Shown here one piece after another: positions 5,443 to 21,511 of a DNA stretch of 21,893 bases (position 1 is the first letter of the stretch; each line of letters starts with the position of its first letter). Origin of the DNA: a virus. Made by a program: the position numbers and the translations under genes. The stretch covers positions 1 to 21,893 of the IMG/VR virus record IMGVR_UViG_3300024433_000068, one strand, 5' to 3'. The notes beneath the pieces are model-generated. The model had not been told where the DNA came from and ran no database searches. It saw only the letters and a list, made by a program, of their open reading frames with translations.

Positions 5443-6912
5443 CTATAACCTCGTTATCCTAGGATCAGATACTGGCTTGATATCTGCTAGAGAATAGATA
5501 ACACTCTCTGCTTGATCTGGTGATCTCCCTAGCTTCTCTTTAATCTTGTCTTTAGGGATAATAAAGAGCTGTCCTGCAGAGTTTCGATCATACTTGATAG
5601 ACATAAGCTGAGTTAAAAGCTCCCGGTCATTTGGAAGGCTCACTATTTCTAAAAGTTCCCTTAATCCCCAATGGATTTCACTCCTTACATTTTTGAACTT
5701 AATCGGATCTTTAGGTTTCCCTGCTCCATGGATCTCTATTATCTTTATATACACTCTAAATTTCTCTTCCGCAAGGTTTTTCTTTCTTTCTTTTGAAACA
5801 TTATCCATTATCCATTTAGCACACAGACTCTGCTTCTCTCCTCTCTGCTCTTTCAGTCTATCTACTACACCGGAGCCCAGCCCATCAGCATCTACTTTAA
5901 TGGAGATCTTCAAGCTTGACTTCTTTTCTTTGCTGGTTTCTATCCCCTCTTCTTTCCATCTAGGTAGGATCCTTTCTGCTATTAGCTTCCAAATATCGCC
6001 AGCAGTCTTCATGAGATCTACGCCTTTACTTGTCTTGTAGATCTCCACCCTTAATCCTTCCCGGAGAGTGATAACCGTCTCGTCTGAAGTGTGACGTTCT
6101 GATCTAGCTACGTCTACTCCGATCTCTAAAGGAAGGGAAGGTTTCACCCTTCGCTTCATAGCTGCTCTTACGTCTAAATAAACATAGACATTATCAGGCT
6201 CCCCTACAGCTTCCCAGTCTCCTTTCATAAGTGCTTTATAAGAAAGAGGAGTCAAGATCTTCTTCATGTTTGGGATATAATTCTTTGGAAGATTCTGCTT
6301 GTTATCTTCAGGAAGTGAAGGGATGAAAGTATGATCTTCTAGGTTCTTTTCCAGGAACCTTTCTTTAATCCAGCCTACATTTGGATTGCAGCTAAGAAGA
6401 AAGAAGTATCTTATCCCGGGAAGGTTTAATCTCAAGCGAGTAGCCAGCATTATAAACTGCTCTTCTGTGAACTGCTCTGCTTGATCTAAAGCTATCCAGC
6501 CATACTCACCTGACATAAATTTGTCCCAGTCGTCTTCTCTCTCTCCTAGTCCACCATAGCGGATTCTAGATCCATTCCGGTAGTAGATATATTTCTTAGT
6601 TTCATTCCAGCCATAGATAGTTCGCCTGTCTACAAATTTCTCTAATTGAGGAAGAACTGTATCAATAAATGAAGGAAGAGTCTTTCTTAAGAGGAGTCCA
6701 AAGTTCCCTGGATAATCAAAGCCCAGCATCTGCCCTTCATTAATCAGGGCTGCAGTCTTCCCACCACCCATAGCACCACCGAAGAGCTTATACATTTCAG
6801 GCGATTGATGAAATAATAGCTGCTTCCTATTTCTCTCTGGATCATACTTCAGCTCAATCTTCAGAGTGCCAGTTTCTTCGTCTAAGCCTTCAACAGTTTT
6901 TTCTATTTGCAT
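5443..6912 (-). CDS. Terminase large subunit (packaging ATPase/nuclease)
   Basis: This 489-residue protein drives DNA packaging and cuts concatemers. The ATPase domain shows Walker A GGAMGGGKT (45-53, K52), Walker B WIALDQAEQ (139-147, with D143 then Q144 rather than the usual Glu, and E146 close by), and the coupling motif SCNPN (174-178). The RNase H-like nuclease shows the expected three acidic sites: GVDVAR (D267), VDADGLGSG (D341/D343) and PDQAESVIYSLA (D466). Length is typical. Its ATG overlaps the small-subunit gene by 23 nt and follows AAAAGGAATA. Confidence 0.95.
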   Translation of the reverse strand: MQIEKTVEGLDEETGTLKIELKYDPERNRKQLLFHQSPEMYKLFGGAMGGGKTAALINEGQMLGFDYPGNFGLLLRKTLPSFIDTVLPQLEKFVDRRTIYGWNETKKYIYYRNGSRIRYGGLGEREDDWDKFMSGEYGWIALDQAEQFTEEQFIMLATRLRLNLPGIRYFFLLSCNPNVGWIKERFLEKNLEDHTFIPSLPEDNKQNLPKNYIPNMKKILTPLSYKALMKGDWEAVGEPDNVYVYLDVRAAMKRRVKPSLPLEIGVDVARSERHTSDETVITLREGLRVEIYKTSKGVDLMKTAGDIWKLIAERILPRWKEEGIETSKEKKSSLKISIKVDADGLGSGVVDRLKEQRGEKQSLCAKWIMDNVSKERKKNLAEEKFRVYIKIIEIHGAGKPKDPIKFKNVRSEIHWGLRELLEIVSLPNDRELLTQLMSIKYDRNSAGQLFIIPKDKIKEKLGRSPDQAESVIYSLADIKPVSDPRITRL

Positions 6913-7792: not shown

Positions 7793-7801
7793 TTATTTCC
7801 C
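7787..7801 (-). terminator. Perfect short palindrome over the ParB-like stop codon, possible terminator
   Basis: GGGAAAT-T-ATTTCCC is a perfect 7+1+7 palindrome containing the TAA stop of the gene at 7793-8581. On the minus strand it is not followed by a clean T-run, only pyrimidine-rich sequence, so an intrinsic terminator is possible but weak. It may instead be a bidirectional end signal between convergent genes or a protein-binding site. Confidence 0.3.
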
Positions 7802-8581
7802 GTTACGGATTTTTAAATCCTGAAAAAAACTGATCTTTTTACCTTGTCGTCTGTAGTTGTAGATGTCTTCAAATATCCGCAGGAAACCATTAACATTATT
7901 TGGCTCGATAAGCAACTTGTCCACATTCTGCTTTAATTTCGACACGAATTCAGAATGATTATATTCTTTAAATTTAAACATTCTCAACATGGACAGTACG
8001 AAAAACCTCTTTTTATAACCATAATAGATATCCTTGAACATTATAATTTTTTCTGCTTTATCCTCTGCTTCTTCTGGATCTCTGAAAATGAATTCGCCTC
8101 TCCTGAAAGAATCTATGGAAACTCCTGATCTTCTCGCACCCGTGGCTTCCGATCCAAGTGGTATATAGCCAATAACAATAATCAATGTCGTAGTCAGTGG
8201 GAAATCATATTTCTTATAGAACTTTTTAAATCTGACATAGTGTTCCATTCCTAAATCATCATAGCAGTTCATAAATTCTGTCAGTGTCCAGTTTTTCCTA
8301 TTCGTGTTGGAAACATGAATTTCCTTAAGACCAAATCCTGATTTCTTGATGTACTGTACAGGGAGCTTCAATTCCTCAAGCGCCTTTTGTCGATGCTGAC
8401 CATCAATCATCTCGAATTTTTCATTGATTATGATTGGCATTCCTAAGTCTCCATGTTCTGAAATAGACTCTTTTAACAGCTTCACATGAGCTGGTTTGAG
8501 AGGTCTATTCCCATTTAAAACTTTGAATTTTGCGTAGTCTGAGGTTTGAAAAACCTTTACTCCGCTCAATTTTTCAGTCAT
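7793..8581 (-). CDS. ParB/Srx-fold protein with its own promoter
   Basis: This 262-residue protein has an N-terminal ParB-like domain: NGNRPLKPAHVKLLKESI (23-40), then GMPIIINEKFEMIDGQHRQK (47-66), where IDGQHR is the hallmark ParB box loop. The remaining 190 residues, starting with KNWTLTEFMNCYDDLG, are not recognised. In phages such domains occur in CTP-binding, nuclease or modification-associated proteins; with no parA nearby, a partition role is unlikely. The ATG follows AAGGAGGTAAAATCCT. Unlike its neighbours it stands alone: a promoter (8727-8754), a structured leader (8644-8717), a palindrome at its end, and no overlap with adjacent genes. That independence resembles a moron, an added cargo gene (inference). 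Confidence 0.85.
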   Translation of the reverse strand: MTEKLSGVKVFQTSDYAKFKVLNGNRPLKPAHVKLLKESISEHGDLGMPIIINEKFEMIDGQHRQKALEELKLPVQYIKKSGFGLKEIHVSNTNRKNWTLTEFMNCYDDLGMEHYVRFKKFYKKYDFPLTTTLIIVIGYIPLGSEATGARRSGVSIDSFRRGEFIFRDPEEAEDKAEKIIMFKDIYYGYKKRFFVLSMLRMFKFKEYNHSEFVSKLKQNVDKLLIEPNNVNGFLRIFEDIYNYRRQGKKISFFQDLKIRNGK

Positions 8582-8766: not shown

Positions 8767-9261
8767 CTACTCTAGCCATTTAAACCCACACTTAGGGCAG
8801 ATTCTCTCTAGCTCTTTTTTCTCTCCAGAGACTTCATCTCCAGGCGCGAATCCCCCTAAAAGCTCTTTGAGAGAGACAGAGTCCCTTATGTCTATCTTGT
8901 AATCTTCAAGCTCTATCTCTTCCTGCAGAGCGAAGATCTCTTCTGCTATTTTCTCTTCGATCCAGATCCCAGAATTATCGTTATCAGAAAGGGCATACTT
9001 CCACTTATCAGCTTCAGTTTTTGGATGGACTATAGAGAGATCTATTTTTTTATGCTTGAGATCCTTTATCACAAAGTAGCGAGTCCTACCACCTAGGATA
9101 TAATATCTCCCATTCTCGCTATAGGCTACAGCTGGCTTGTAGATCCCCAGCTCTAAGACTTGCTTCTTAGTCCTTTCATAGTCTTTAGTTTTTGTTGCCC
9201 GGGTCTGCAGATTCTTATTCCAGACTTCTACAGAGGAAAGATTTGCGCTGATTATTTCCAT
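8767..9261 (-). CDS. Second ParB-like protein with C-terminal zinc-ribbon end
   Basis: This 164-residue protein carries a different ParB-like domain: NLQTRATKTKDYERTKKQVL (17-36), GIYKPAVAYSENGRYYILGG (39-58) with GGRTRYF, then YALSDNDNSGIWIEEKIAEE, the segment that in this family follows the core (compare the common ALADNR...WDEELL pattern). It ends CPKCGFKWLE, half a zinc ribbon. Such proteins often sit near phage terminase genes, as here; some are tied to DNA modification or cleavage, but the activity of this one is unknown. The ATG is preceded by AGAGGA, which falls inside a small hairpin (CCTCT/AGAGG, 9273-9284). Confidence 0.8.
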   Translation of the reverse strand: MEIISANLSSVEVWNKNLQTRATKTKDYERTKKQVLELGIYKPAVAYSENGRYYILGGRTRYFVIKDLKHKKIDLSIVHPKTEADKWKYALSDNDNSGIWIEEKIAEEIFALQEEIELEDYKIDIRDSVSLKELLGGFAPGDEVSGEKKELERICPKCGFKWLE

Positions 9262-10888: not shown

Positions 10889-11617
10889 TTATTTCCCTAA
10901 GACAAATTTAAAAGTAGCAGTAACTACTACTCCTACGCCTACTCCTATTATGAAGCCTTTAAATAGGCCACTCCAAAAGCTCTTCTTGTTCTGCTTCTCG
11001 CTTAGATTAAATTTAACATCTTGCTTCTTTGCCATCACCTTATAATTCGAGATCTGATCTCCCATTTTCCATAAGGCTCCGAAGAGGTTCCAAGATACTC
11101 TTTCTTGCCGGATCAAAGCTTTCTCGCTTCTAGATAGAGCGAAGATTGCTTCATCATATTTCCCTTCTACTAGAGAAAATCGCTTTAGCTTAAGCAATCC
11201 TTCTCTAGCGCACTCCACAGAAAACAAGACCCCCTCTTCATTGAGTAGGATATCTTGACAGCCTAAGATCTCTCTAGTTTCTTCTACGAGCTGTGAAGGG
11301 GGGAGCGCCATAACTATTTCTTCTACTTCAGCTTCTTCTATCTCCAGCTCTTCGATCCTAGCCTTGCTTGCTTCTACTTCAGTTTTTAATTTCTCTACTT
11401 CTTTTCTTTCAGCTAAAGCATCGTTGATATAATCTACTACTTCACCTTCAAGCTTAGAATTCTTTCCTTTGAGGTCTGAGATCTCTTCATCAAGGTCTCT
11501 TATTTTTTTCTCGTAGCCAGCATCTCTACAATAATTCTCAAGGAGAATAAGAGTGATCAATATCACTCCAGCTAAGAAGATCCACTTCCATTTTATTAGT
11601 ATAGTTCGCTTAGCCAT
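10889..11617 (-). CDS. Large coiled-coil protein with N- and C-terminal membrane helices
   Basis: The 242-residue product has a transmembrane helix near the N-terminus (about 10-27, WKWIFLAGVILITLILL), a long coiled coil (about 35-105), a middle helical domain with two Cys residues (ILGCQDILL and SVECAREG), and a second glycine-rich hydrophobic segment near the C-terminus (about 218-236, FIIGVGVGVVVTATFKF). The start at 11617 has AGGGGATA before it and overlaps the upstream gene by 8 nt; a longer frame from 11638 has no such site. Its position just before the lysis genes suggests an envelope function, for example spanin-like or exclusion-related, but this is speculation. Confidence 0.75.
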   Translation of the reverse strand: MAKRTILIKWKWIFLAGVILITLILLENYCRDAGYEKKIRDLDEEISDLKGKNSKLEGEVVDYINDALAERKEVEKLKTEVEASKARIEELEIEEAEVEEIVMALPPSQLVEETREILGCQDILLNEEGVLFSVECAREGLLKLKRFSLVEGKYDEAIFALSRSEKALIRQERVSWNLFGALWKMGDQISNYKVMAKKQDVKFNLSEKQNKKSFWSGLFKGFIIGVGVGVVVTATFKFVLGK

Positions 11618-11969
11618 TATCCCCTGCTCTTGTCTCATCGTTTTCTTCTTTCAAGTGCAGTTTCATTTTTTCCCGGAGATCTCTCCAGGTGATCCTGTCT
11701 TGAGCTTTAGTAGCTGGAGTCTCAAGCCAATCTTTAAAGGCTGGGTTTTCTATAGCTGTGAGGATCATTCTCTTTTCATACTGGGTCAAGTGAACATATT
11801 TTCCTGTAGTTATCTTACTGATTATCTCAGCCTGTCCTTTAATTATATTAACCTTCTCTTCTACTTCTTTCTCTAAGAGATCTGCTTGCGTCTTAAATTT
11901 TAGAAGCTCTTTCCTTTTGAAGATCTTTTCTATGAGATCTCCAATGAATCTTTTAATTTTCTTTCTCAT
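11610..11969 (-). CDS. Unknown basic helical protein
   Basis: A 119-residue, highly charged protein with a basic N-terminus (MRKKIKRFIGDLIEKIFKRK) and predicted helix throughout. It contains TGKYVHLTQYEKRMILTAIE, which looks like a short globular module, and no catalytic motif. The ATG follows GGGAG and overlaps the end of the HNH gene by 17 nt; its own end overlaps the membrane coiled-coil gene by 8 nt. Tight coupling with that gene suggests they act together. Confidence 0.7.
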   Translation of the reverse strand: MRKKIKRFIGDLIEKIFKRKELLKFKTQADLLEKEVEEKVNIIKGQAEIISKITTGKYVHLTQYEKRMILTAIENPAFKDWLETPATKAQDRITWRDLREKMKLHLKEENDETRAGDNG

Positions 11970-12234
11970 GCTTCTTCTCCCATTCTTTGCGCCTCTTTTC
12001 AGCTTCTGCTTCGCGGTGGTGTTCTTCGCAAAGAATTAACCAATATTTTTTATTAAAAAACCCTACTTTATCTCCAGTATAAATCAAGTGATGGATCTCT
12101 AGTGTTTCCTTAATCCCACAGCAGTAACATTCATATTTTTCATTAAAGGCATCTCTCTCTAGTTTCTTCCTGAGTTGATGTTGCCACCTTGATTTATTTT
12201 CTTTAAAGTCTTCTTTAATCGTTACTCTATCCAT
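11953..12234 (-). CDS. Small HNH-type protein
   Basis: The 93-residue product has the layout of an HNH nuclease: CYCC (36-39) as first zinc pair, LEIHHL (45-50) with the catalytic His candidate, and LCEEHH (69-74) with the last metal ligands. Flanking helices are basic and charged. HNH proteins near terminase genes often help packaging cuts, but here it lies more than 4 kb from the terminase, so it may act in recombination, defence or modification. The ATG follows AAGGAGGTTTAATC. Start and end are tightly packed against neighbours. Confidence 0.8.
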   Translation of the reverse strand: MDRVTIKEDFKENKSRWQHQLRKKLERDAFNEKYECYCCGIKETLEIHHLIYTGDKVGFFNKKYWLILCEEHHREAEAEKRRKEWEKKHEKEN

Positions 12235-12236
12235 GA

Positions 12237-12338
12237 TTAAACCTCCTTTAAATTTTGCTTATTACGCACTTTAAGAGCCTTCCCTGGTCTAAGGTGTATA
12301 ATCCCATTAAACAGGCTCTCAAGGCGCTTAGAATCCAT
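12237..12338 (-). CDS. Putative 33-residue basic protein
   Basis: A short frame starting MDSKRLESLFNGIIHLRPGK fills the gap between two genes. AGGAG lies ten bases before its ATG, and the ribosome binding site of the downstream HNH gene forms its last codons (KEV), a packing style seen throughout this genome. The peptide is basic with no cysteines. A 7-bp inverted repeat (AGAGCCT 12274-12280, AGGCTCT 12313-12319) lies inside it, so the stretch could instead be a structured RNA. Confidence 0.5.
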   Translation of the reverse strand: MDSKRLESLFNGIIHLRPGKALKVRNKQNLKEV

Positions 12339-14123: not shown

Positions 14124-14237
14124 TTCCCTTCCTCGTTCTTTTAAGATGCTCCCAATGCTTAGTCATGTTACTAAATAATTAGCTCGGAAAGTCCGGGAAA
14201 TAGTTGCCCTGGAATTGAGTAACGATTTATTTTTCAT
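14113..14237 (-). other. Two tiny ATGA-linked frames of doubtful coding status
   Basis: In the gap after the gene at 14234-14680 there are two chained frames: 24 codons (14163-14237, start overlapping the upstream TGA) and 17 codons (14113-14166, start overlapping the first frame's TGA). The second ends within the GTG-start gene. Each overlap is of the ATGA type used elsewhere here, but the starts lack convincing Shine-Dalgarno sites. They may be real mini-proteins, or only keep ribosomes moving through the gap. Confidence 0.25.
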
Positions 14238-14680
14238 TCTCGTTCTTTTCCTGAAGTCAATAATTTTCCTTCTGTATATTTTTGAAAGAGAGTCCTCTTC
14301 CCATCATACATATAAGGAAGGAAGATCTCTTGTGGCTGGGCTTGCCCTGATGCTATTAAACTTAACTGAGCATGAGTCCAGTCTTTTAGTATTCTCCATG
14401 CTACCCTATAAGCCTTATCATCTCTTCTCTTCATTGAATCCCTTGCATGGTGAGCGCGGATCCCTTTATATAGAATTTCCTTCACTCCCTCAACATTTGC
14501 TGGAAGCTTAAAAGAATCGTCCAGGAGTCTAAAAGAAAGGCTGTGGACTCTTCCATTAGAAGTGTATTCTTTTATAATTGCTGCAGCTCCAAAGAAAGTT
14601 AAAAGCTTCTCTATTTCAAGGATGCTTCTTTCTGCTGAGATTTCTGTAGTATAATTTTTTATGTTAAACTTTTGATCCAT
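14234..14680 (-). CDS. Conserved phage protein of unknown function
   Basis: The 148-residue product fits a family I remember from many phages and prophages: NYTTEISAERSILEIEKLL (9-27), GAAAIIKEY, LSFRL followed by FKLPANVEGVKEIL, then YRVAWRILKDWTHAQLSLIA (91-110) and a closing EIFLPYMYDGKRTLF (118-132). The pattern is clear, the function is not known to me. It starts 17 nt inside the end of the zinc-knuckle gene behind a GGGGGG-type site. Its location in the replication block suggests a DNA-metabolism accessory. Confidence 0.85.
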   Translation of the reverse strand: MDQKFNIKNYTTEISAERSILEIEKLLTFFGAAAIIKEYTSNGRVHSLSFRLLDDSFKLPANVEGVKEILYKGIRAHHARDSMKRRDDKAYRVAWRILKDWTHAQLSLIASGQAQPQEIFLPYMYDGKRTLFQKYTEGKLLTSGKERE

Positions 14681-15415: not shown

Positions 15416-16263
15416 TTTTTCTCCTTTTCTTTAAAATTATTAACTAAATCTTTAATCTCTTTAGCGTCTCGATCTCTTTTTGATATATAGAAAGATTGTC
15501 CTGTCTTCCTGGATCCCCCTTTGTCTTGCTCTCTTTTTAGCCAGTTGTTTATGAATTGTCTGTAGTTAGATTTCTTTCTTGAAGGATTCGCTAGAAGCCA
15601 TTCTCTCATTATCCTTAATTGTGCTTCTATATCTACAGCTGGATAAGCATCTAACCATCCAGCCTTGTCTTCTACGTTTATATTTAGAAATTTTCTCTTT
15701 TCAAAATTAAAGTCAATTTTTACTTCTTTCTTCTTTATTATTTCTTCTTTCTTAGATTTAGAAGTAGAAGAAGAAGTAGAAGAAGAAGTAGAAGCTGCTA
15801 TTTTTGCTATTTTTTTATTTTTATCTTTGCTATCCTCTTGCCATCGCTTCTTGGCTCCTTCTTTGCCAGCTTTAGACCGAGCCTCACTTATCTCTTCTTT
15901 TCTTACACTCTCTCTATACATTCGCCTACATATGATAGTTCCATCTCCTAGTCTAGAAAATACATTTTTAGCTTCCAGTTTTTGTAATAACTTTGCTATT
16001 TTATTTTCTGTGTCGCCTACAATTTTTGCTAAAGTTTTGCTATTAACTTTTTTTCGACTTATAGTTAAGGTTCCCCTTATTTCTGATTGAAACATTATCC
16101 CTAACATATCTATCCATAAGCCCCTAGCTTCTAAACTGCAGAGCCTTACATCAAAAGCTGAAAACCAATCTCCCCAATACCATTGCTGAGCTGGTCTGCG
16201 ATCTTCTTTATAGCTTTCCTTAGGTATATTTTTCTTTTTTGGACTATCACTTTTTATATCCAT
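15412..16263 (-). CDS. Replisome-organiser-like protein
   Basis: The 283-residue protein has the three-part design of phage replication-initiation proteins. Residues 28-110 (WYWGDWFSAFDVRLCSLE, RGLWIDMLGIMF, TLAKIVGDTENKIAKLLQKL, NVFSRL) form a winged-helix-like N-terminus that would recognise origin DNA. A low-complexity linker (about 155-175, Ser/Thr/Lys) follows. Residues 190-255 (WLDAYPAVDIEAQLRIMREW, SNYRQFINNWLKRE) resemble the DnaD/DnaT-like module that loads helicase. No origin iterons are seen in the gene. The start lacks a Shine-Dalgarno site and lies four bases after the predicted transcription start (promoter 16274-16300). Confidence 0.75.
   Translation of the reverse strand: MDIKSDSPKKKNIPKESYKEDRRPAQQWYWGDWFSAFDVRLCSLEARGLWIDMLGIMFQSEIRGTLTISRKKVNSKTLAKIVGDTENKIAKLLQKLEAKNVFSRLGDGTIICRRMYRESVRKEEISEARSKAGKEGAKKRWQEDSKDKNKKIAKIAASTSSSTSSSTSKSKKEEIIKKKEVKIDFNFEKRKFLNINVEDKAGWLDAYPAVDIEAQLRIMREWLLANPSRKKSNYRQFINNWLKREQDKGGSRKTGQSFYISKRDRDAKEIKDLVNNFKEKEKK
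15761..15794. repeat. 12-bp tandem repeat, 2.8 copies
   Basis: The unit GAAGTAGAAGAA is repeated in frame and encodes the Thr-Ser-Ser-Ser linker of the replisome-organiser-like protein. It is a site where length variation between relatives is likely. Confidence 0.7.
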
Positions 16264-20493: not shown

Positions 20494-20748
20494 TCAGCTT
20501 CCTGGCTCTTTGAAGATATCTCGGAAGAGGCGAACTCCAATCTCGATAGCCTTTTTTTCTTCAATCCAGTCGCATCTATCTCCCCAAATTTTCTTCCCGG
20601 ACTCTAATTGAATGAGGGGGATAGGATCAGGAGCCTTCTTTCTAGTGATAATGTCTTTGGCTGAATAAGCAAACTTAATGATAGTCCCCCAGCCTAAACA
20701 TTGGTGAGTAGATTCGTCCCATACTTGGACTTTATCATTTTCTTTCAT
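20494..20748 (-). CDS. Small unknown protein, beta-rich
   Basis: An 84-residue protein, MKENDKVQVWDESTHQCLGW at the start and IWGDRCDWIEE in the middle, with alternating hydrophobic strands that look like a small SH3-type barrel; no known motif. Its ATG overlaps the stop of the upstream zinc protein (TGATG). It ends just upstream of the recombination promoter, so it is the last gene of the early unit. Confidence 0.7.
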   Translation of the reverse strand: MKENDKVQVWDESTHQCLGWGTIIKFAYSAKDIITRKKAPDPIPLIQLESGKKIWGDRCDWIEEKKAIEIGVRLFRDIFKEPGS

Positions 20749-20957
20749 CAGTCCTCCTCTCCAAAATATTCAATTTGGCAAACTTGACATAAACCAGATA
20801 TCTCGTATTCTGCCTTGCTCAATGGATCTGCTATCTCCTCTACTTTTCTTTTGCATTGAATACAGATCTTCTTTTTATGGATCTCGCTTAGCTTCTCACC
20901 AAAGCACATTTTAGATAAAGAATCTGCTAAATCTTGTAAATTTTTAGATCTTTTCAT
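20748..20957 (-). CDS. Treble-clef zinc protein of a common phage type
   Basis: A 69-residue protein with CIQC (32-35) and CQVC (57-60), separated by RKVEEIADPLSKAEYEISGL. The ISGLCQxCQ end is widespread in small phage proteins (I recall CxxCGK... and LSRKEYxISGLCQxCQD variants). Function unknown; it may bind a host protein or DNA. The ATG follows AAAGGAGGCACT, eleven bases after the stop of the RiPP-like peptide gene. Confidence 0.8.
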   Translation of the reverse strand: MKRSKNLQDLADSLSKMCFGEKLSEIHKKKICIQCKRKVEEIADPLSKAEYEISGLCQVCQIEYFGEED

Positions 20958-20968
20958 AGTGCCTCCTT

Positions 20969-21118
20969 TTATGACCCTTCAATAAGACAATTTCCCGGTC
21001 TTGTGCAGGTGCCAATTCTAGGACCCTGAGTCTGAGAATTTTTGCAGAATCCTAAAACAGATTCTTTTGGTCTTAAAGGGACTCTTCTTATTTCAGGTTT
21101 CTTGTAAGGTTTCTTCAT
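20969..21118 (-). CDS. 49-residue three-cysteine peptide resembling a RiPP precursor
   Basis: A frame with ATG at 21118 and a strong AAGGAGG site four bases upstream encodes a leader-like half MKKPYKKPEIRRVPLRPK and a core-like half with GFCKNSQTQGP, then C38, C44 and the end GS (three cysteines: C25, C38, C44). The plan KKPYxKPEIxxVxLxPxExVLGxCK...GP...C...C..GS matches short peptides I associate with candidate ribosomally made, modified natural-product precursors in bacteria. No radical-SAM or other modification enzyme is visible in this window. It lies in the early operon between two small proteins. The likeness is from memory and needs a search. Confidence 0.7.
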   Translation of the reverse strand: MKKPYKKPEIRRVPLRPKESVLGFCKNSQTQGPRIGTCTRPGNCLIEGS

Positions 21119-21127
21119 CTTTCCTCC

Positions 21128-21511
21128 TTAACTAATTTTGAGATTAACCTTGCCCGGATATTCTCTAGCTTTCTTCCCGGCTTCTTTCCAAGCTTCCTCT
21201 TTAGTAGAAGCCTCTATCTTGAATCTGTCTACTCTAACATTCATGCTTGAAAAAACTTCAAAATGAAAGGGGATCATCATCTTCCTTTCAATGAGTTTAG
21301 CTTTGCTAGGGAAGGTGCTAACTATAGGAAGAACATCACTACTTAAATTTTCATAAAGCCTTTTACTTAGCTCTTCTTCTAGTGCTTTTATCTTTTCCTT
21401 TTTATCAAGAGAGACTTCTGTTCCAGGTGGTAAGTTTTCTATCTTTTCCATTAATTGAGCATGTCTTGAAGCTAGCTCGCGAGCTGTAAGATCACTAATA
21501 GAATTATTCAT
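21128..21511 (-). CDS. Unknown early protein
   Basis: A 127-residue protein with a helical N-terminus (ISDLTARELASRHAQLMEKI; KKEKIKALEEELSKRLYE) and an alpha/beta C-terminus (VRVDRFKIEASTKEEAWKEA, GKKAREYPGKVNLKIS) of the kind found in small RNA- or protein-binding domains. The ATG is preceded by GAGGT and a run of A residues. It is upstream of the RiPP-like peptide by 10 bp. I do not recognise it. Confidence 0.75.
   Translation of the reverse strand: MNNSISDLTARELASRHAQLMEKIENLPPGTEVSLDKKEKIKALEEELSKRLYENLSSDVLPIVSTFPSKAKLIERKMMIPFHFEVFSSMNVRVDRFKIEASTKEEAWKEAGKKAREYPGKVNLKIS

Follow-up and report, generated by a model that had tools for sequence, protein, structure and literature searches.

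What does a phage gain from a gene for a peptide-natural-product precursor when the enzymes that would mature the peptide are not encoded beside it? The question is raised by a 49-codon gene at 20969..21118 on the minus strand of IMG/VR record IMGVR_UViG_3300024433_000068, which was analysed over all of its 21,893 nucleotides (the window). An earlier note, made from the letters of this DNA alone, had described the product as a RiPP-precursor-like peptide encoded in a phage early operon.

The precursor gene and its phage setting

The open reading frame was confirmed at 21118..20969 (-). It starts with ATG and encodes MKKPYKKPEIRRVPLRPKESVLGFCKNSQTQGPRIGTCTRPGNCLIEGS. The strong ribosome binding site attributed to it was also found, since a Shine-Dalgarno sequence, AAGGAGG, lies at 21123..21129 (-), 4 nt ahead of the ATG. 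The homologous gene of a 55.7-kb phage contig has AAAGGAGG at the same place. The cysteines C25, C38 and C44 and the terminal GS were present as described. Alignments with precursors from Nitrospirota delimited a leader of residues 1-24, MKKPYKKPEIRRVPLRPKESVLGF, at 21047..21118 (-). The core, residues 25-49, CKNSQTQGPRIGTCTRPGNCLIEGS, is encoded at 20972..21046 (-) and was recognised by its Cys at -25, -12 and -6 from the C-terminus and its terminal Ser. The boundary between them, set just before C25, is a guess. No family in Pfam, NCBIfam or PHROG matched the peptide.

The window is phage DNA, encoding a terminase large subunit, a portal, a head protease, a major head protein and an amidase. 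The precursor gene belongs to a leftward series of small genes, some with RHH, zinc-ribbon-like or HNH products, and genes for a Cas4-like exonuclease and a replisome-organizer-like protein were found downstream of that series. Placement in an early operon is reasonable on this arrangement, but remains an inference from it. The stop of the adjacent upstream gene (21128..21511, -; 127 aa, function unknown) abuts the ribosome binding site of the precursor, which suggests that both genes share one transcript. As far as is known, this neighbour has no part in the function of the precursor. The adjacent downstream gene (20748..20957, -) encodes a zinc-ribbon-like protein of 69 aa with CxxC pairs, and a homologue is present in the 55.7-kb phage. 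Elsewhere in the window, two separate ParB-like genes lie near each other at 7793-8581 and 8767-9261 (-).

The same peptide was detected in two further IMG/VR phages, with 90% identity to that of the window in the 55.7-kb contig (P1) and 63% in a 24.8-kb contig (P2), which is possibly a fragment. In both, the precursor gene is likewise near a PD-(D/E)XK/Cas4-like nuclease gene and has no enzyme cassette, so that the recurrence in phages proposed as a check was obtained. Further IMG/VR scans using phage-only and mixed alignments revealed no fourth phage with the peptide, and a tblastn search of annotated phage records (INPHARED) with the peptide gave no match.

Between the window and P1, 44 of the 49 residues are kept while only 45% of the third codon positions are equal (dN 0.10, dS saturated; NG86). 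This shows that the 49-aa reading frame is more than a product of chance and that the peptide is under strong purifying selection. The constraint affects leader and core alike, with 19/22 and 25/27 identical residues, respectively. Both P1 and P2 are otherwise distant from the window. The terminases of the window and P1 share 32% identity, and beyond these there are few gene matches. A 148-aa gene of unknown function in the window (14234-14680, -) is about 78% identical in P1 and has a 35% homologue in the Nitrospirota genome G308.

A Nitrospirota precursor family and its enzyme cassette

When species genomes were scanned with the window peptide, two Nitrospirota MAGs gave matches, and a profile search of this phylum was positive for 59 of the 396 genomes. 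From the DNA around about 40 of the profile matches, 51 precursors in 42 loci were collected, and the surrounding ORFs were scored with four query proteins. These contexts were chosen for holding a precursor and not for holding enzymes, so the association between the two was not built in. Within 3 kb of the precursor, a radical SAM/SPASM enzyme and an HprK-like kinase were each found in 47/51 cases, a PqqD-like protein in 44/51 and an S24/S26-like peptidase in 34/51. The earlier note had proposed looking for tailoring genes beside homologues, and it is these four enzyme types, the peptidase often but not always, that were found adjacent. The weak point is that all four queries came from a single cassette (L004), so that each label depends on homology to it.

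Annotation of the cassette proteins gave matches above the Pfam cut-off for PqqD, Radical_SAM and Peptidase_S24. The kinase matched Hpr_kinase_C only below the cut-off, and conserved GxSxxGKST, DDR and GTPWHG motifs were found in it. Among PDB entries, the PqqD-like protein matched the lasso leader-binding protein TbiB1 and the radical SAM enzyme matched PqqE. Of the 47 precursors that have a kinase beside them, 46 have Ser and one has Thr as the last residue; as a control, 11% of short ORFs from the same DNA end in Ser.

Four of the 51 precursors were found without the cassette. Three of these (L080, L100 and L105) were rejected as truncated, weak or false family matches. The fourth, L083 (G089:C9, about 5832-6149), has no cassette in the 12 kb of DNA around it, and its surroundings look chromosomal, not phage. 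A complete cassette lies on a different contig of genome G089, so bacterial precursors, too, may be acted on in trans. Another four loci (L081, L082, L092 and L101) have tandem precursors, two or three radical SAM genes and cores ending in DSGxRxS, and represent a second, apparently unnamed branch of the Nitrospirota cassettes. No name for the precursors of the PqqD/radical SAM/HprK-like cassette was found in NCBIfam or in the literature searched.

The relationship of the phage peptides to this family was evaluated with a profile built from 49 bacterial precursors and no phage sequence. A small bias remains, since P2 had been part of the profile used to collect the bacterial set. Against the 934 ORFs of the three phages, the profile matched only the three phage peptides (E 1.2e-16 to 3.3e-15). 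The window peptide gave E = 1.7e-15, with leader and core both fitting. The motif KKxYxKPxxxxVxLxPxExVL is common to the phage leader and the Nitrospirota leaders, as is CK at the start of the core. The cysteine positions -25/-12/-6 occur in all three phage cores and in the bacterial peptide L068. Each of the phage peptides has GS at its end, and thus a terminal hydroxyl residue like the cassette precursors. What the phages lack is the set of PqqD, radical SAM/SPASM and HprK-like genes beside the precursor. Judged by these alignments and profile scores, it is near certain that the phage peptides belong to the Nitrospirota cassette precursor family. The window peptide is an orphan member of it, that is, a homologous precursor whose enzymes are not adjacent. 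The reading as a RiPP precursor was thereby supported, from the cassette homologues and from the recurrence in phages.

The host itself can be named only provisionally, because other phyla were not covered by the profile search, and proof of a cognate host is lacking. Of the relatives seen, those nearest to the peptide occur in Nitrospirota, and over 46 nt the leader DNA matches a gene from this phylum with 87% identity. The window portal shares 53% identity over 393 aa with a portal in a Nitrospirota genome, compared with 35-39% for the best-matching records of the phage collection. The locus of that 53%-identical portal (L046; genome G030, contig C53) has a terminase next to it and is likely a prophage related to the window. 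A comparison of the window with the 396 Nitrospirota genomes gave no convincing CRISPR spacer and no close prophage. Several matches of 30-35 bases near 15760-15795 were discarded, as they fall in a low-complexity serine-coding stretch of a 283-aa gene. Two 20-kb pieces of P1 gave no spacer-like match in 30 genomes. No tRNA genes were found as a clue to the host.

Proposed maturation in trans and its alternatives

The observed family membership, the constraint and the host cassette, together with the lack of enzymes in the three phage contigs, are best explained by a phage-encoded orphan precursor of the Nitrospirota RiPP class that is matured in trans by the host. We assign this reading a probability of roughly 0.65. 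Expression, maturation in trans, the identity of the host and the function of the product, like every step below, are inferred. As possible roles, the earlier note had considered use of a host enzyme, competition for it, signalling or toxicity. The 49-aa peptide would be made by the phage during infection, and its leader, KKPYKKPEIRRVPLRPKESVL, would be bound by the PqqD-like RRE protein of the host. The Cys/Gly-rich core could then be modified by the partner radical SAM/SPASM enzyme, with a chemistry that is unknown. Phosphorylation of the C-terminal Ser49 by the host HprK-like kinase would follow, and the leader would be cut away, perhaps by the S24/S26-like peptidase. The resulting phage-specific product would serve the phage through an unknown target, and the precursor would also compete with that of the host. 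By analogy, Ser49 is a likely kinase site: in lasso precursors, the C-terminal Ser is phosphorylated by HprK homologues (PMC8498205), the bacterial precursors with an adjacent kinase all have Ser or Thr as their last residue, and the phage peptides end in GS. The broader proposal, in which free-standing precursors of Nitrospirota phages pass through the host PqqD, radical SAM and HprK enzymes to yield a phage-specific, C-terminally phosphorylated peptide that aids infection, stands in our view at an even chance.

One alternative keeps the host enzymes but makes the phage product inert: the peptide would be a decoy that occupies the PqqD-like protein, the radical SAM enzyme and the kinase and so blocks a host RiPP with a possibly defensive role. 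The conserved leader agrees with this, and Streptomyces RiPPs with anti-phage action exist (PMC12360287). However, in the two closest phages the core is no less conserved than the leader, beyond what leader binding alone needs; this speaks for a product that depends on the core and against a mere leader decoy. In addition, PADLOC does not list the kinase, the peptidase or the PqqD-like protein as defence proteins, and the radical SAM enzyme matches viperin models only weakly, a match that the common radical SAM domain explains. A decoy is thus unlikely, although it deserves consideration. It is rather less probable that the phages have a maturase of their own, either in an unsampled part of the genome or as a divergent enzyme. 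The claim that no maturation enzyme lies nearby was borne out for the 21.9-kb record, which may be a fragment; as the same may apply to the 24.8-kb contig, a distant maturase cannot be excluded for either. P1 itself has two radical-SAM-like ORFs with CxxxCxxC (1069-1743 and 11306-12283). One of them is a DUF5131 protein, and the other matches Radical_SAM weakly. Both fall outside the SPASM cassette family and are at least 12 kb away from the peptide gene. On the other hand, not one of the 934 ORFs from the three contigs matched the profiles of the PqqD-like, radical SAM, HprK-like and peptidase proteins at E<=10. A scan of IMG/VR with the cassette radical SAM enzyme gave 111 relatives at E<=1e-3, all distant among those listed (21-38% identity), and no precursor or PqqD gene adjoins the 80 that were kept. 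The corresponding scan with the kinase confirmed no phage-borne homologue.

Two further readings deny the peptide a role in RiPP biosynthesis, and both can hardly be sustained. A small cytoplasmic or zinc-binding protein that merely looks like a RiPP precursor could be imagined from the three Cys and the zinc-ribbon-like neighbour, but the C-x12-C-x5-C spacing includes no CxxC pair, neither a zinc-ribbon profile nor any other Pfam, NCBIfam or PHROG family matched, and the relatives sit in RiPP cassettes. Recent capture of a host gene that is functionless in the phage would fit the 87% identity of the leader DNA, but is contradicted by the strong purifying selection at saturated synonymous sites and by retention in three divergent phages. 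Maturation of the phage precursor by host enzymes remains the preferred reading.

The retention of an enzyme-less precursor in divergent phages suggests that a natural product is made by substrate hijacking. If this is true, the virus supplies a substrate and hijacks the natural-product enzymes of its host. To our knowledge, previously described RiPP genes of phages, that for sublancin in SPbeta among them, are accompanied by biosynthetic genes of their own. As a naturally selected alternative substrate, the phage peptide would open a way to the function of an abundant and apparently unnamed Nitrospirota cassette. Genome mining that requires a nearby maturase would overlook such precursor genes.

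Comparison with known systems

The cassette enzymes resemble those of SynChlorMet (NCBIfam TIGR04248-TIGR04251, ScmC/D/E/F), with scores above noise and the same enzyme types: a PqqD-like protein (ScmD), radical SAM/SPASM enzymes (ScmE/F) and an HprK-like kinase (ScmC). Identity with that system was rejected, as the scores against ScmC, ScmD, ScmE and ScmF (28, 34, 81 and 71 bits) fall far below the NCBIfam cut-offs (125, 100, 400 and 400) for all four. Moreover, the closest Nitrospirota cassettes have one radical SAM gene, not two.

HprK-kinase lasso peptides (paeninodin, ThcoK/SyanK types) also share a PqqD-like leader binder, and in these systems an HprK-homologue kinase occurs with a conserved C-terminal Ser (PMC8498205). 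In the Nitrospirota cassette, by contrast, the main maturase is a radical SAM/SPASM enzyme. Searches with phmmer and NCBIfam named only PqqD, radical SAM, HprK-like and S24/S26 proteins among the cassette genes; a lasso cyclase was not seen, without a dedicated search.

According to a review, biosynthetic clusters occur on phage genomes (PMC12360287), and sublancin 168 of prophage SPbeta is a phage-carried RiPP precursor (PMC6391423). SPbeta has the immunity gene sunI, whereas the window phage has no recognisable enzyme or immunity gene. SPbeta also carries the genes for sublancin maturation. No orphan precursor of the present kind was found in the literature, which is weak evidence given that only open-access papers were searched. 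The nearest counterparts are the Nitrospirota cassette precursors themselves, whose host copies adjoin their enzymes, while those of the phages are solitary members of a phage operon.
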